Shown: positions 2,243 to 10,157 of the stretch, piece by piece | How positions within the stretch are numbered: position 1 is the stretch's first letter | How the letters are laid out: every line of letters starts with the position of its first letter | Assembly: GCA_947471365.1 (NCBI GenBank) | Contig: CANIWQ010000001.1 | Coordinates: 1-64,000 of the forward strand | DNA length: 64,000 nucleotides | Reading direction: 5' to 3' | From: Gemmatimonadota bacterium | GTDB lineage: Bacteria; Gemmatimonadota; Gemmatimonadetes; Gemmatimonadales; Gemmatimonadaceae | Position numbers and translations under genes: made by a program | Notes under the pieces: generated by a model | The model's input: only the letters and a program-made list of their open reading frames with translations | Told to the model about the DNA's origin: nothing | The model's database searches: none

Positions 2243-4249
2243 TTAGGCGCCCTTCTTTTTAGCCGCGGGGCGCTTGGCGGGCGCATCGGCCTTGGCAGCC
2301 TTGGCCGGCGCCTTGGACTTGGCAGGTGCTTCGGCCTTGGGTGCGGCCTTGGGTGCGGCCTTGGGTGCGGCCTTGGGTGCGGCCTTGGGTGCGGCCTTGG
2401 CGCGCGTCTTCTTGGCAGGTGCTTCAGCGGCGGCCGGTGCGGCAATGGAAACCGGCGCAACCGGCGCAACCGGCGCAACCGGTGCAACCGGTGTCACGAC
2501 GGCGGCCGGCTTGGGCGACGCCGACTCGACGACACCGATCAGCAGGAAGTTCGGCGGCGGCGCCATTGCCTTGCCACCACGCCCACCACGATTCGGAACG
2601 CCACGAGCGACCATGCCACGGGGCGCAGGGGGATTGGCAGCAGCCTTGACCTTATCGTCGGCGGCCTTGAGTTCGGCTTCCTTGACTTCGATCTGCGAGG
2701 AAACGCTGGCGGCCGTAGCGGAACGCGCGACTTCGTACGAATCACCGCGCTTGCGAAGATCGACAACATCCCCGTCGTGCGCATCGCGAAGGATGCGCGG
2801 GAAGTTGCGTTCATTGAGGCTCTCGCTGTCTCGGCCGAGGAGATCGAACGCCTTTTGGCGTACCTGCTCAGCGCTGACCGCGTCTTCGCCGGTGACGAGT
2901 GCCGTGACGGCGTTGCGCACGAGGGTAAAGGCTTCGTCGCGCGTGAGGCGAATGCCGGCGCGGCCGATGTTGGCGTTGACGACGACCGGCTCGCGACGCT
3001 CGCTTCGCGGTTCGCGATGACGGCGCGAGTCAGCGGCAACCGGCGCAGCCGGAGCCGCCGGAACGGCCGGAACGGCAACAGCCACGACAACGACCGGTGC
3101 GGTGATCGGCGGCGTGGGCGTGGAGACCGCGACCGCGCCGGCCTTCCGGCTGCCTCGACCAGCGGGGCGGGCCGATGCTGGGGCAGCCGAAGCAACGGCA
3201 GCGACGGCAGCGACGGGCGCGACCACCGGCACTTCCACCGAAGCCGGAGCGAGGTCAGCACCCTGTTCTGCGGTTCCGGTGGCTTCTTCACGTTCGCGGC
3301 GTCCGCGACCGCGACCACCGCGACGTCCGCGCCGGCGACCTTCGCGTTCTTCCCCGTCAGCGCCCGCGACGCGCGGTGCCGGAGTTGCTGAGGTCTCAGC
3401 ACTCTTGGCGACGCCCTTCGTGGGGGCCACTTCGAGCTGACCGTTTTCGAGCTTGGTGACGACGATGAGTCCCTTTTGTGCCGCTTCGGCGCAGAACTTG
3501 GAGAACTTGGAAATGCCCAGGTCTTTTTCGTCGAAGGAGCTGTCGATCTCCTGCATCACCTGCTTGAGGCGATCGGAGCGCATGACGTCGCCGTTGCGCA
3601 CCATACGCGTAATGGCTTCCGTGACGAGTTCCCACGGGTCGTACTTGGTGTCGGCTCCGCCGTCTTCGTTGGCCTTAACGAGGCCGGCGAGCGCGTTGTA
3701 GCTGTAGTACTCGTCGCAGTTCTGCACGAGCAGATCGCTGGACGACTCACGAATACCGACGCCGATAACGTACTTGCCGTATTCCTTGAGCTTGATGACG
3801 AGGCTCGAGAAGTCGGAGTCGCCGGACAGCAGGATGATCGTGCCGATTTCCGGACGCGTGAAGACGAGCTCGATCGCGTCGATGGCGAGGCGGATGTCGG
3901 TTGCGTTCTTCTTGGACGACCCGTAGGCCGGGGCGAAGATGAGGTCGATCGACGCTTCGCTGAGCGGGACGATGTACTGCGGGTAGCGGCGCCAATCCGC
4001 GTAGGCGCGCTGAACGGCGACCTTTCCGTGGATGATGTCGGACGACAGCAGGTTGCGCAGCTCCGTTTGAAGATCAGAGCGGATCCCCATCGTGACGTTG
4101 TCGAAATCGATGAGGAGCGCGGCGTTGGGCGCGTGATGCGGAACGAGGGCACCCGGCACCATGGACTGCGGGGCATGCGCCTGCGGTCCGCGGTGCAAAG
4201 GCGCCACCGGCCCGCGGGATGGAACGACGTGCGAATGACGTGACTTCAT
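2243..4249 (-). CDS. NYN-domain (LabA/DUF88-like) protein with two LOTUS/OST-HTH-like domains and a histone-H1-like tail
   Basis: A 668-aa protein. Residues about 42-190 form a NYN/PIN-like nuclease domain, with acidic residues in LLIDFDNV (D48, D50), D118 and LLSGDSDF (D144, D146). Residues about 204-276 look like an OST-HTH/LOTUS RNA-binding domain. An Arg/Gly-rich stretch (EGRRRGRRGGRGRGRRE) and an Ala/Pro/Val linker follow. A second OST-HTH-like module begins GIRLTRDEAFTLVRNAV, and the C-terminus is a Lys/Ala/Pro tail with a five-fold PKAA repeat, resembling histone H1. NYN-LOTUS proteins are linked to RNA processing or decay, so a role in RNA cleavage or binding is likely but not shown. 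The gene has its own divergent promoter region upstream. Confidence 0.85.
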   Translation of the reverse strand: MKSRHSHVVPSRGPVAPLHRGPQAHAPQSMVPGALVPHHAPNAALLIDFDNVTMGIRSDLQTELRNLLSSDIIHGKVAVQRAYADWRRYPQYIVPLSEASIDLIFAPAYGSSKKNATDIRLAIDAIELVFTRPEIGTIILLSGDSDFSSLVIKLKEYGKYVIGVGIRESSSDLLVQNCDEYYSYNALAGLVKANEDGGADTKYDPWELVTEAITRMVRNGDVMRSDRLKQVMQEIDSSFDEKDLGISKFSKFCAEAAQKGLIVVTKLENGQLEVAPTKGVAKSAETSATPAPRVAGADGEEREGRRRGRRGGRGRGRREREEATGTAEQGADLAPASVEVPVVAPVAAVAAVASAAPASARPAGRGSRKAGAVAVSTPTPPITAPVVVVAVAVPAVPAAPAAPVAADSRRHREPRSERREPVVVNANIGRAGIRLTRDEAFTLVRNAVTALVTGEDAVSAEQVRQKAFDLLGRDSESLNERNFPRILRDAHDGDVVDLRKRGDSYEVARSATAASVSSQIEVKEAELKAADDKVKAAANPPAPRGMVARGVPNRGGRGGKAMAPPPNFLLIGVVESASPKPAAVVTPVAPVAPVAPVAPVSIAAPAAAEAPAKKTRAKAAPKAAPKAAPKAAPKAAPKAEAPAKSKAPAKAAKADAPAKRPAAKKKGA
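2341..2400. repeat. Tandem repeat, 5 perfect copies of 12 bp, inside the NYN/LOTUS gene
   Basis: The unit GTGCGGCCTTGG occurs five times with no mismatch and encodes the Ala-Pro-Lys-Ala repeats of the basic tail. Perfect identity at the DNA level suggests recent expansion by slippage, so copy number may vary among strains. Confidence 0.95.
2451..2486. repeat. Tandem 9-bp repeat inside the NYN/LOTUS gene
   Basis: The unit ACCGGCGCA is present three times exactly, with a fourth copy carrying one change (ACCGGTGCA). It encodes an Ala-Pro-Val repeat in the low-complexity linker ahead of the basic tail. Confidence 0.9.
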
Positions 4250-4664: not shown

Positions 4665-5882
4665 GTGAAGCGACTCGGGTTCCGGTCCCGTCTGTTCCTT
4701 ATTCTGGCGCTCTTCGCCTTCGTGCCTGCCATTCTCCTGACGGCAGCGTGGGGCGGGGCCATCGCGCGTCTCCTCCCCCGCATGAGCGGGACGGCGGCGT
4801 GGGATAGCGCGGCGGCGAGTGGCACGCGGGCGATAGAAATGGCACGCACCCGTGGTCCCCTCTCCGCCGCGCAAACGGCGGTTTTGGCGGCGCACGAGCG
4901 GGAGCTGGCGACGTCGCTGACACAAGCGCGTCGGTTTGAGTATTTAGCGCGCCAACTGGTGCCAGCGATGCTCTTGATCGGCATGGTCGCGCTGGCGGTG
5001 TTGACGTTTTTGGCGTCGCGGGCGGCGGGGCATCTGAGTCGACAGCTCAGCCGTCCGCTCGACGAACTGGTGGGGTGGACCGGCCGGATCCGTGATGGAA
5101 AAGCGTTGCCGGCGCAAACCGAGTCGCGCGGCGCCCCTGAGTTTGCGCTGTTACGGGACGGGATGCGGCAGATGGCGCATGATCTGGACGCGGGGCGTCG
5201 CGCTGCGCTTGAAGCCGAGCGATTGACGGCGTTTCGGGAGTCGGCACGCCAGATGGCGCATGAGATCAAGAACCCGCTGACGCCGATCCGTTTTGCGGTG
5301 GACCGGCTCAAACGATCGGTGCCGCCGGAGCTGTCTGATACCGTAGAGGTGTTGCAGGTGGAGTCGGCCCGACTGGAAGCGATGGCCCGGAGTTTTGCGC
5401 AGTTTGGGCGCCTGCCCGAGGGGCCTTTGGCGGAGATTGACCTTGGTGAGTTGGTGCAGACCACGGCGCGTACGACGGTTCCGGAGCAGGTGTGGTTCCG
5501 ACTGCAGGCCGAGGAACCGTTGCCCCTGCTGCGAGGCTATTACGACGCGCTCAGTCGGGCGGTGGCAAACGTGCTGCTCAATGCCGTGGAAGCGTGCCAA
5601 CAGGGTGGAGCGATTGACGCGCGCGTCGTGCGGCTTGGAGCGAACGAACTGATGCTGGCGGTCCACGACACGGGGTCTGGCATTCCGACGAACCGCGTGG
5701 CCACGATTTGGGAACCGTACGTGACACTGAAAGCCGGGGGCACGGGACTCGGTCTCGCCATTGTGAAACAGACGGTGGAAGCACACGGCGGGCGGGTAGA
5801 AGCACAGAGTTCGCCAGAAGCAGGAACAGAGATTCGACTCATCTTTCCGGTAACGCCTCCGGTATTGGGGACCAGTTCTTGA
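4665..5882 (+). CDS. Sensor histidine kinase, NtrY-like
   Basis: 405 aa from a GTG start. Two membrane segments (about 9-30 and 99-117) enclose a short periplasmic loop, followed by a HAMP-like linker. The H-box is MAHEIKNPLTP with phospho-acceptor H199. ATPase-domain motifs are the N-box VANVLLNAVEAC, the G1 box DTGSGIP and the G2 box GGTGLGLAIVKQ. The kinase should autophosphorylate and pass phosphate to the NtrC-type regulator encoded 0.3 kb downstream, so the two likely form an NtrY/NtrX-type system. The stop overlaps the start of the next small gene. No PAS domain is evident; the signal is unknown. Confidence 0.9.
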   Translation: MKRLGFRSRLFLILALFAFVPAILLTAAWGGAIARLLPRMSGTAAWDSAAASGTRAIEMARTRGPLSAAQTAVLAAHERELATSLTQARRFEYLARQLVPAMLLIGMVALAVLTFLASRAAGHLSRQLSRPLDELVGWTGRIRDGKALPAQTESRGAPEFALLRDGMRQMAHDLDAGRRAALEAERLTAFRESARQMAHEIKNPLTPIRFAVDRLKRSVPPELSDTVEVLQVESARLEAMARSFAQFGRLPEGPLAEIDLGELVQTTARTTVPEQVWFRLQAEEPLPLLRGYYDALSRAVANVLLNAVEACQQGGAIDARVVRLGANELMLAVHDTGSGIPTNRVATIWEPYVTLKAGGTGLGLAIVKQTVEAHGGRVEAQSSPEAGTEIRLIFPVTPPVLGTSS

Positions 5883-6193
5883 ACGCAGATATCATCATTC
5901 CTATCGCATTTTTCGGCACGGTGGTGGTGCTTGCTCTTGGGGTGCCGCTCGTGCGCGCGTACGTGCGCCGGCAAGACGCGCAATCGCATTTGCCGCCGAG
6001 CGATCCCGAGCTGTCGGCTCGCCTCGCACGGATTGAGGCATCACTGGAATCGGTCGCAATAGAAGTCGAACGCATTTCCGAGGGGCAGCGATTCACGACC
6101 AAACTGCTCTCCGAACGTCGCACACCGGAAGCGGCGCAGGCGTTGCCGGCGCCGTCACTCGACGCGGGCGCGGTGCGCCGCGACGCGGTCTGA
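5879..6193 (+). CDS. Small single-pass membrane protein between kinase and regulator genes
   Basis: 104 aa from a TTG start that overlaps the kinase stop codon (TTGA), implying translational coupling. An N-terminal membrane helix (IIIPIAFFGTVVVLALGVPLV) is followed by a short basic segment (RAYVRRQDAQ) and a predicted helical or coiled-coil part (LSARLARIEASLESVAIEVERI). The low-complexity end has no known domain. It may be an accessory of the two-component system, judged only from its position. A longer in-frame extension upstream overlaps the kinase gene and is not believed. Confidence 0.7.
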   Translation: MNADIIIPIAFFGTVVVLALGVPLVRAYVRRQDAQSHLPPSDPELSARLARIEASLESVAIEVERISEGQRFTTKLLSERRTPEAAQALPAPSLDAGAVRRDAV

Positions 6194-6220: not shown

Positions 6221-7600
<1,380 letters not shown>

Positions 7601-7614
7601 AAGCGGCGCGCGAA

Positions 7615-7633
7615 GTGACACGCCGCGTCTCAC
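7615..7633. promoter_or_regulatory. Imperfect 19-bp dyad, candidate activator binding site
   Basis: GTGACACGCCGCGTCTCAC has arms of nine bases around a central C, with one mismatched pair. It lies 14 bp after the regulator stop and about 90 bp upstream of the -24 element of the sigma-54-like promoter, a typical distance for an enhancer-type site. Two further GACACAGG direct repeats follow, at about 7641-7648 and 7660-7667. Its link to the NtrX-like protein is inferred. Confidence 0.5.
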
Positions 7634-7721
7634 GCAAAGCGACACAGGCCGCCGGTGTGACACAGGTGATGGAATGCACGAACAACCAGCGGGATAACGA
7701 CTTAGGCGATGGGCGGGCGCG

Positions 7722-7737
7722 CGGCACGGCATGTGCT
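7722..7737 (+). promoter_or_regulatory. Putative sigma-54 promoter (-24/-12)
   Basis: CGGCACG-N4-GTGCT matches the consensus TGGCACG-N4-TTGCW in 10 of 12 defined bases. It keeps the invariant GG (7723-7724) and GC (7735-7736) ten bases apart. Transcription would begin near 7747, about 30 nt before the ATG of the bactofilin-like/Omp85-like gene. The neighbouring sigma-54 activator gene raises the prior. Confidence 0.6.
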
Positions 7738-7775
7738 TGTGCTACCGGTGACCGTTCACCTCTGGAGAACTACCG

Positions 7776-9506
7776 ATGAAGTCCATTCTGCGACACGCGT
7801 TGCGCTCTTGCGTCGCCTTCCTCCCGTCGCTGCCCATGGCTGTGGCTGCGCAGCGCGCCGACAGCACGGCGCTCCGGTTGTCCTCTGTGGCAAGGAGCGC
7901 GGTGGAGAGTTATAACGCCGCGGCAACGCGACGCGTCACCGGCGCATTGGATGTGCCAGCGGGCACGATCTACACGGGCGACGTGGCGGTGCTCAACGGA
8001 CCCGTGACGGTCGCGGGACGTATTGCCGGCACTGTAGTGGCTATTAACGCCGACGTGCGCTTTGCACCGGGCGCTGAGGTGGGGCAGCATGTGATTGTGG
8101 TGGGCGGCAACCTTGTAGGCCAGGACGGCGCGAAGATCGGTGGAGAAATTCGCGTGCAAGCCGAGCTGCTCCGGTATCACCTCGACGGACAGCGTTTGGT
8201 GGCGGACGGCGAGCCCGTGTATGACGAATCGTGGTGGACGCGGCACCGGGTGCGGCACGAGTTTCGCCGTGGCGAAGCGTTCACCGACTTCTTCTACCTC
8301 GCGTCGCGCTCATACAACCGCGTGGAAGGATGGTCGTTTGCGGCGGGGCCACGGTTTCAACGCACGCCGGACTGGGGAAAGTTCAAGATCGAGGCGTTTG
8401 GTGTGGTGCGCACGGTCAGCCCAGTTCGATGGGACAATCAGACGCTAGGTCACGACGCGCGCGCCGAGGTGCAGTTCGGCAAGCCGATCGGCCTGGCTCT
8501 TGGTGCGCGTGCATTTGACGTGGTAGAGCCAACGGAAAGCTGGCAGCTGGGCAACACCGAGACTGGGCTTTCGTCGGTGTTACTCCACCGGGATTATCGC
8601 GACTACTACGTGCGCCATGGTGGTCAGCTGTATGCGCGCTTTCAGGCATGGGATGAGGCCGACCTCACGATCGGGCTGAGCGACGAGCAGTGGAGCAATC
8701 GCGCTGCCGGCGATCCGTGGTCGGCGACTCGCGGCCATGAGCCGTGGCGTGCGAACCCGACGATGGATCCCGGATCGATGCATCTGCTGACGACGCGCCT
8801 CCGCGTCGACACGCGGGAGCAGACAGGTTCGCCGTGGGCGGGTTGGTATTTGGTGGCGGAGATGGAGAAAGGCGCCGGGCGTATCACACGACTGGGCGCC
8901 CCAGTGCAGACGTTTGCCGTGCCGACGCCCGAAGCGGTGTCGTACACGCGGGGGTTTGCCGATGTGCGCCGGTATAATCGCATTGCGCCCGATTTCTTTC
9001 TGAACTTCCGCGTGGCGGCGGGCGGTTGGATGAGCGGCGATGCCTTGCCGACACAGCGACGACTCAGCGTTGGCGGACCAGGCACGCTGCCGGGCTTCGA
9101 CTTTCGCGATACCGGCGGCCATCCCGACATTCTGACCTGCTCGGGTGGCGTGGTGCAGACGGGCGCTCCCGCGCAGTGCGATCGTGTGGCGTTGGCGCAG
9201 GTGGAGTTGCGGTCTGGATTCTTATGGTCGGCGTTGCGCAACGATGCTGAGGAAGACTGGTGGCGCCCGGGACTCAATCACCGCACGCAGTGGGTGCTGT
9301 TTGCCGACGCGGGTCGCGGCTGGAAGGTTGGGACCGCGGACGGTTCGCTGACGTCTTCCAAGGATGCGATGCCGAGCTTCAACTCGTACAAGACGGACCT
9401 CGGCATCGGGATCGACTTTGGCGGCTTTGGCGCGTACTGGGCCAAGCCGGTGAGTGATGAACACGAGCCGGCCCGATTCATCGTTCGCCTGGAACGGCGG
9501 TTCTAG
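7776..9506 (+). CDS. Outer-membrane protein: bactofilin-like N-terminal beta-helix plus Omp85/D15-like barrel
   Basis: 576 aa with a signal peptide ending near VAAQ. Residues about 55-130 are short repeats of the type GTIYTGDVAVLNGPVTVAG, resembling polymer-forming bactofilin/beta-helix segments but exported here. The rest is rich in alternating aromatic strands, with an Omp85/surface-antigen hallmark near the end (RRLSVGGPGTLPGFDFRDTGG). It ends in RLERRF, a C-terminal Phe suited to BAM recognition. The product is probably an outer-membrane barrel with a periplasmic or surface beta-helix. The gene follows the NtrYX-like pair and a putative sigma-54 promoter; the next gene starts 3 bp after its stop. 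Confidence 0.75.
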   Translation: MKSILRHALRSCVAFLPSLPMAVAAQRADSTALRLSSVARSAVESYNAAATRRVTGALDVPAGTIYTGDVAVLNGPVTVAGRIAGTVVAINADVRFAPGAEVGQHVIVVGGNLVGQDGAKIGGEIRVQAELLRYHLDGQRLVADGEPVYDESWWTRHRVRHEFRRGEAFTDFFYLASRSYNRVEGWSFAAGPRFQRTPDWGKFKIEAFGVVRTVSPVRWDNQTLGHDARAEVQFGKPIGLALGARAFDVVEPTESWQLGNTETGLSSVLLHRDYRDYYVRHGGQLYARFQAWDEADLTIGLSDEQWSNRAAGDPWSATRGHEPWRANPTMDPGSMHLLTTRLRVDTREQTGSPWAGWYLVAEMEKGAGRITRLGAPVQTFAVPTPEAVSYTRGFADVRRYNRIAPDFFLNFRVAAGGWMSGDALPTQRRLSVGGPGTLPGFDFRDTGGHPDILTCSGGVVQTGAPAQCDRVALAQVELRSGFLWSALRNDAEEDWWRPGLNHRTQWVLFADAGRGWKVGTADGSLTSSKDAMPSFNSYKTDLGIGIDFGGFGAYWAKPVSDEHEPARFIVRLERRF

Positions 9507-9509
9507 CGC

Positions 9510-10157
9510 GTGACTGCCTTGCGACGCCTCGCTGCTTTCGCGCTTCTCACTGTGGTGAGCCGGATGCCGTTGCACGCGCAACGGCATCCGGTGGTGGAAG
9601 TGCACGCGCCGGCGCCAGCGATGGCGATGCTCGAAGGGCCCGTTGTCACGGCTCGGGACATGCTCGCGGGGAGCCGGATTCGCGAGCTCCTAGCGGCTGG
9701 CTTTCCCGCGCAGTTCCACTTTCAGGTGGAGCTCTGGAGCCAAGGGCGATGGACGAATGACATCGAGCGTCGCGCAGAGTACGACGTGAAGGTGCGCTAC
9801 ATTCCGCTCGACAAAGTGTACGAAGTGGTTCAAATGACCGACGGCCGCGCGCTGTCGCTCGGCCGGTTCGCACGAGTGGAGGATGCCGAAGCGGCGATTG
9901 CGCGCCCCACGCGCGCGCCGGTGACGGCACGTCGGATCAGTCGCCGGCAGTATTACCAAGTCACGCTGGACGTGGAAGTGCTATCGTTGCGCGACCTCGA
10001 CGAAGTGGACCGTTGGCTCCGCGGCGAAATCGAGCCGGCGTTCAACGGGAACGCGGGGACGGTGGTCACCCGCGGACTCAAGACCCTCGTAGCGCGCGTG
10101 CTCGGCGGTGAGAAACGTGAGTACGAAGCGCATACGGAGCCGTTTCAGCTTCCGTAG
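9510..10157 (+). CDS. Exported protein resembling DUF4390
   Basis: 215 aa from a GTG three bases after the preceding stop, so co-transcribed with the barrel gene. It has a signal peptide (RLAAFALLTVVSRMPLHAQ). The mature protein contains ELWSQGRWTNDIERRAEYDVKVRYIPLDKVYEV, which resembles DUF4390 proteins. In proteobacteria DUF4390 genes are commonly found beside NtrYX-like genes. The same neighbourhood here strengthens the assignment. Function is unknown; an envelope role is likely. Confidence 0.6.
   Translation: MTALRRLAAFALLTVVSRMPLHAQRHPVVEVHAPAPAMAMLEGPVVTARDMLAGSRIRELLAAGFPAQFHFQVELWSQGRWTNDIERRAEYDVKVRYIPLDKVYEVVQMTDGRALSLGRFARVEDAEAAIARPTRAPVTARRISRRQYYQVTLDVEVLSLRDLDEVDRWLRGEIEPAFNGNAGTVVTRGLKTLVARVLGGEKREYEAHTEPFQLP

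Follow-up and report, generated by a model that had tools for sequence, protein, structure and literature searches.

In Bordetella, the NtrYX-family system PlrSR was recently described as having a third component, the DUF4390 protein PlrP, which apparently restrains phosphatase activity via the PDC domain of the kinase (PMC13001219). That work mapped DUF4390 in proteobacteria, where the family was reported from beta-, gamma- and zeta-proteobacteria and in Magnetococcia (PMC13001219). In Rhodobacter sphaeroides, ChIP placed NtrX before envelope genes, a bactofilin gene included, and the text of the NtrYX paper mentions neither rpoN nor GAFTGA (PMC7240162). Sigma-54 itself has been viewed as a factor that controls the cell exterior (PMC3162934), and our literature search yielded hardly anything on this factor in Gemmatimonadota. 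We analysed a 64,000-nt stretch of DNA from a Gemmatimonadota bacterium (hereafter the window). Our main conclusion, which we consider quite probable, is that it carries a dedicated local sigma-54 circuit serving one operon, which would encode an outer-membrane barrel together with its own periplasmic modulator.

The source genome comprises 3.31 Mb in 222 contigs and is 98.8% complete; the named records with homology were Gemmatimonadetes. The region examined, positions 7601-7775, separates the gene of a response regulator from that of an outer-membrane protein (Table 1), and the latter gene was detected in 55/61 related genomes. For comparison, the region upstream of the outer-membrane gene was taken from 30 loci of family f1, the window included, and from 24 further loci, mostly of order-level relatives. 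Elsewhere in the window, the reverse strand at 2243-4249 encodes an NYN-domain protein with a long low-complexity tail, rich in Ala, Lys and Pro, that contains tandem APKA-type repeats.

Table 1. Features of the locus, in window coordinates
Feature	Position	Strand	Basis or remark
Sensor histidine kinase gene	4665..5882	+	Pfam, hydropathy; adjoins ntrX in relatives
Small single-TM protein gene	5882..6193	+	Relatives in many loci
NtrC/NtrX-type response regulator gene	6221..7600	+	Pfam, GSFTGA loop
Candidate enhancer (UAS) GCGCGCGAAGTGACACG	7606..7622	+	Position, relatives
Earlier-noted 19-bp dyad GTGACACGCCGCGTCTCAC	7615..7633	+	Left arm overlaps candidate enhancer
GACACAGG copy 1, probable secondary enhancer half-site	7641..7648	+	Kept in L003, CGACACGA in L004
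GACACAGG copy 2, possible third half-site	7659..7666	+	Not kept in L003/L004
IHF/HU-like element GGATAACGACTTA	7692..7704	+	Alignment of relatives, IHF consensus
Predicted sigma-54 promoter CGGCACGGCATGTGCT	7722..7737	+	-24 GG 7723-7724, -12 GC 7735-7736
Outer-membrane protein gene	7776..9506	+	Pfam/profile matches, model
DUF4390 (PlrP family) gene	9510..10157	+	Pfam, model, neighbourhood in relatives

An earlier note on this DNA had described the upstream gene as an NtrX-like sigma-54 activator. Profile searches bore this out: the protein matched the Pfam families Response_reg and Sigma54_activat, followed by a Fis-type helix-turn-helix (HTH), and contains a GSFTGA loop. It therefore combines the AAA+ domain, receiver, Fis-type HTH and GAFTGA-type loop by which sigma-54 enhancer-binding proteins are recognised, and all 56 loci in which the loop motif was found read either GAFTGA or GSFTGA. 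Against the NtrX equivalog NF051870 the regulator scored 396 bits, under the curated cut-off of 600 bits, and it also fell below the cut-off of the NtrC equivalog. The kinase, whose gene stays next to ntrX in relatives, matched HisKA, HATPase_c and, weakly, HAMP among the relevant Pfam domains, and hydropathy indicated two TM segments (residues ~4-38 and ~93-125) enclosing a periplasmic loop of ~55-60 aa. NtrY_N, PAS and PDC domains were not recognised in the profile search of this protein. The name "NtrYX-like", given to the pair in the earlier note, thus fits loosely as a type and fails as a statement of membership, because the regulator stays below both cut-offs and the kinase shows none of these three domains. 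Between the two genes, many relatives keep the small single-TM protein, for which a Pfam match was not found; it is possibly a further component of the signalling system.

Downstream of the examined region, the predicted bactofilin-like/Omp85-like gene and the DUF4390-like gene were both recovered, the latter with 36.8 bits against a Pfam cut-off of 27. In the outer-membrane protein, a bactofilin-like beta-helix (residues ~40-130) appears to precede a C-terminal Omp85-superfamily barrel that carries Omp85-like motifs and ends in Phe; a POTRA domain was not found in this protein. The window barrel reached 19.2 bits with the Omp85 model, under the cut-off of 24, while the same model matched 11 of 23 relatives at E <= 0.01 (best 2e-9) and the Bactofilin model matched 9 of the 23. 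The structure model of the outer-membrane protein was poor (mean pLDDT 45.6), and only its N-terminal beta-helix was usable (pLDDT ~80); this predicted helix is consistent with the Bactofilin matches. The usual Omp85 loop motif is xRG(F/Y), with Arg-Gly. Here, the loop reads GGPGTLPG(F/Y) at residues ~434-441, and P439-G440 is invariant in the 23 relatives. Of 30 loci, 28 have the DUF4390 gene beside the outer-membrane gene (L018 and L029 reach contig ends). The DUF4390 protein has a signal-like N-terminus, judged by eye only, and a predicted beta-rich domain; its model had a pLDDT of 77, and a significant match to it was not found in the PDB.

We then considered the proposed promoter within the window alone. 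The GG-N10-GC match reported in the earlier note (10/12) is present at 7723-7736: it agrees with TGGCACG-N4-TTGC at 9 of 11 non-W positions, or at 10 of 12 when W is counted, and deviates by a C at -26 and a G at -15. Since 19 sites with the same core score at least as high in the 64 kb (both strands), the window promoter by itself is weak evidence. Transcription would be predicted to start at ~7748. Several members of the genus share a GTTCAC block (7754-7759 in the window) that falls between this predicted start and the ribosome-binding site.

On the scale of the source genome, a scan for the sigma-54 consensus with one mismatch gave 33 matches, fewer than the 62 in the reversed control, so that no regulon size can be claimed. 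Individual sites close to the consensus, upstream of flagellar genes (flgF- and fliL-like), a pilin gene (pilA-like) and a grpE-like gene, nevertheless look plausible. A perfect consensus, TGGCACGGCCGTTGCA, lies 37 nt 5' of the GrpE-like gene (G000:C19:10716-10731, L035); a chaperone gene under sigma-54 would be unusual. The flgF-like gene is preceded by two sigma-54-like sites 11 nt apart, and further such sites precede the fliL-like and type IV pilin-like genes (G000:C21:3549-3575 and C21:13470, L036, L045, L046; C76:7044, L055). The sites of the flgF-, fliL- and pilin-like genes resemble classical sigma-54 regulons.

The picture changed when relatives were aligned. GG-N10-GC was found 34-41 nt 5' of the ATG of the outer-membrane gene in 27 of the 31 syntenic loci with room for a promoter. 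In a count that made no assumption about sigma-54, every gapped pair XX-Nk-YY was tallied in these 31 loci, with start codons picked by eye from the position of the Shine-Dalgarno sequence; the top two of 3584 dinucleotide pairs were GG-N9-TG (29/31) and GG-N10-GC itself, both 34-42 nt from the ATG. Core sites scoring 8/11 or better, no more than 120 nt from the start, occurred in 21 of the 30 f1 loci (2.2 expected from dinucleotide shuffles) and those of at least 9/11 in 14 (0.47 expected), although the L020 site, one of the 21 and 98 nt from the start, is probably a chance match. When 17 non-redundant loci were aligned on GG, T(-14) and A(-22) were invariant, while the flanks had a median ungapped identity of 30%, which is near random; as the loci of this alignment had been selected for GG and GC, the invariance of these two columns was not counted as evidence. 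A search for rpoN, suggested in the earlier note, found the gene at full length in the source genome, with the RpoN box ARRTVAKYR, and a match in 60/61 genomes. Because rpoN exists and the -24/-12 element is conserved, we regard a sigma-54 promoter before the outer-membrane operon, as read from the aligned sequences, as well supported.

The same element could be read as GGCACG-N4-(C/T)GTGC, an operator dyad (GCA-N7-TGC) of an NtrC/NtrX-type regulator and not a sigma-54 promoter. In the genus it is indeed a near-perfect inverted repeat, GCACG-AAT-CGTGC, and GCA-N9-TGC has been proposed as a proteobacterial NtrX site (PMC7240162), but the spacer here is 7 instead of 9. Moreover, distant relatives lose the symmetry and keep GG-N10-GC, A(-22) and T(-14) (GGTACGCGCACTGCC, GGGACGATGGCTGCG, GGCATGGCCCCTGCA), and the constant distance to the start codon suits a promoter. 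Alternatively, the element could terminate or attenuate ntrX transcription as a weak intrinsic signal, with the outer-membrane operon read from a sigma-70-type promoter; this would account for the copies in L006 and L010, in which a T run comes after a hairpin with a stem of 5 bp and a loop of 3 nt. In most loci, however, the window included, such a stem and T run are weak or missing, and stem pairing, too, is lost in distant relatives that retain the sigma-54 positions. Since the near-dyad breaks in these relatives where the sigma-54 positions stay, we judge the operator reading to be decidedly unlikely and the terminator reading to be highly improbable, and we retain the sigma-54 promoter.

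An enhancer for this promoter was sought upstream. In seven f3 genomes, a 17-bp palindrome, CGTGTCG-GAA-CGACACG (CGTGTCGGAACGACACG), is intact and begins only a few bases away from the stop codon of ntrX; five copies are identical, and those of L082 and L078 are each off at one position. With two mismatches allowed, the palindrome occurs once in each of these seven genomes, at the ntrX locus, and not at all in the reversed control. An additional match in G042 was dismissed, as it lies within a glycogen-phosphorylase-like coding region. The f1 loci retain the right half, GACAC(G), often after GAA. Its GACAC, more frequent than any other pentamer at -110 to -85 (16/20), lies 101-108 nt 5' of GG in most loci, regardless of how far away the ntrX stop is (exceptions: L014, 126 nt; L017 and L028, 114; L083, 95; L015, 47; L086/L100, 57). 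The window copy corresponds to the right half and the centre of the palindrome, with GACAC 106 nt from GG. As the best match of the full 17-mer in the window was not above shuffles, its assignment as an enhancer is drawn from position and relatives; likewise, the f3 palindrome gave 14 matches in the source genome against 12 in the reversed control, which is chance level, because the window retains only half of it. On these comparisons, relatives lend good support to a palindromic enhancer near the promoter, and one is likely present in the window too. In those relatives in which the promoter directly follows the ntrX stop, an obvious enhancer was not found.

The earlier note had instead put forward the 19-bp dyad. 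This dyad exists, with 8 of 9 positions paired against a chance expectation of 0.046 per 175 nt, but as an enhancer it did not stand: of the two elements whose conservation in syntenic relatives had been named as a check, the -24/-12 element is kept, whereas for the dyad this holds only in the nearest relative, L003 (92% identical); L004 and the more distant loci no longer have it. What is conserved of the dyad is its left arm, TGACACG, which follows GAA and belongs to the differently placed palindrome, while the right arm is neighbouring sequence kept only in L003. The palindrome half at 7606-7622 is hence the better enhancer candidate. The two GACACAGG direct repeats were found as described and are plausibly extra enhancer half-sites, conserved in close relatives only. 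No good sigma-54 or enhancer site was seen 5' of the kinase gene in the window, and none was conserved there in relatives; direct autoregulation by this element is therefore unlikely.

Between enhancer and promoter, the IHF/HU-like element GGATAACGACTTA ends 19 nt before GG. The alignment shows a TT(A) block at -21/-20 from GG and an A at -27, and several relatives read CAA-N4-TTA. The IHF consensus is WATCAANNNNTTR. Because the block resembles this consensus, we propose the element as a putative IHF/HU bend site; an HU/IHF-family gene is present.

The source genome has ~9 strong matches to Sigma54_activat, and a genuine sigma-54 promoter might thus be driven by another activator than the adjacent one. 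We find this unlikely, given that in three families the enhancer is found at the 3' terminus of the regulator gene or just past it, with mostly fixed spacing to the promoter, and that in f3 genomes it is a single-site motif, as for a local dedicated regulator. The adjacent regulator thus seems, from these motif counts, to be dedicated to the single promoter before the outer-membrane operon. The suggestion of a self-contained module gains from the lack of any other non-coding occurrence of the palindrome in the seven related genomes and from DUF4390 being a known NtrYX partner (PMC13001219).

The sigma-54 wiring is not universal, since ~8 f1 and most f2 relatives have no site; in these, ntrX and the outer-membrane gene nearly touch or overlap. 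The gap in promoter-less relatives is usually <50 nt (L007, L009, L016, L020, L022, L023, L025, L026 and most f2), and in short-gap relatives the outer-membrane gene is, judging from the spacing, joined to the regulator operon. The gap of L027 and L030 offers space for a promoter, yet the site was not found there. Absence of the promoter does not equal absence of rpoN, an explanation that we rejected: rpoN is retained in genomes without the promoter, and the only genome without an rpoN match, G012 (83% complete), carries the promoter (L005). The overlapping or closely spaced genes of these relatives would also fit the view that the outer-membrane and DUF4390 genes simply belong to the kinase-regulator operon and that the promoter is minor. 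Against this, the promoter is conserved in the gap of the window and of 26 other loci, and we hold a merely shared operon to be improbable.

We propose the following sequence of events for the sigma-54 circuit, in which the promoter, the conserved enhancer, the gene order and rpoN are supported by sequence and conservation. The membrane kinase would phosphorylate the NtrC/NtrX-type regulator, which would then bind the palindromic enhancer at 7606-7622, behind its own gene, perhaps aided by the GACACAGG copies. An IHF/HU-type protein may bend the DNA at ~7692-7704, so that the GSFTGA loop of the regulator could remodel sigma-54 polymerase at 7722-7737. The promoter would drive a two-gene operon encoding the Omp85-superfamily barrel with its bactofilin-like periplasmic domain and the periplasmic DUF4390 protein. 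By analogy with PlrP, the latter probably feeds back on the kinase, although this type of feedback may not transfer, as the kinase has no recognisable PDC domain, the presumed route of PlrP. The boldest version, in which the regulator acts through one sigma-54 promoter on barrel and modulator and a feedback loop from outer membrane to kinase is closed, is one that we put forward tentatively and consider rather doubtful. If true, it would describe a one-promoter circuit for outer-membrane sensing in which a PlrP-type third component is itself an output.

The position of the DUF4390 gene suggests that its product, besides modulating the circuit, can be one of the circuit's outputs. The locus extends the recently proposed NtrYX-DUF4390 partnership, reported from proteobacteria, to another lineage with a different wiring, and offers for Gemmatimonadota a base-resolved, evolutionarily supported enhancer and promoter with a putative bend site. 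It also connects sigma-54 with an outer-membrane protein whose domain composition is unusual, a link that fits the cell-exterior view (PMC3162934).

Compared with the Omp85 superfamily, this protein shares the predicted C-terminal barrel and the Omp85-like motifs and differs in its bactofilin-like N-terminal beta-helix, in the loop LPG(F/Y) and in that no POTRA was found. As in NtrYX of R. sphaeroides, an NtrX-type regulator is tied to envelope genes that include the bactofilin family (PMC7240162); there, NtrX has several targets and the site GCA-N9-TGC, whereas here we see one apparent target and CGTGTCG-N3-CGACACG. The locus resembles PlrSR-PlrP of Bordetella in combining a histidine kinase, an NtrX-type regulator and an adjacent gene for a secreted DUF4390 protein (predicted to be secreted here). 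However, the kinase, unlike PlrS, has a short periplasmic loop and no recognisable PDC. In Bordetella, plrP lies 5' of plrS, together with rsmB; the plrP promoter is weak, and PlrS regulates it negatively to some extent. In the window, the DUF4390 gene comes 3' of the regulator, after an Omp85-type gene, and is under a predicted sigma-54 promoter. The proposed layout is that of classical NtrC/NifA systems, with a GAFTGA activator, a palindromic enhancer ~100 nt upstream, an IHF-like site and a -24/-12 element, but in contrast to these it is local and apparently single-target, its enhancer lying at the 3' terminus of the activator's own gene.
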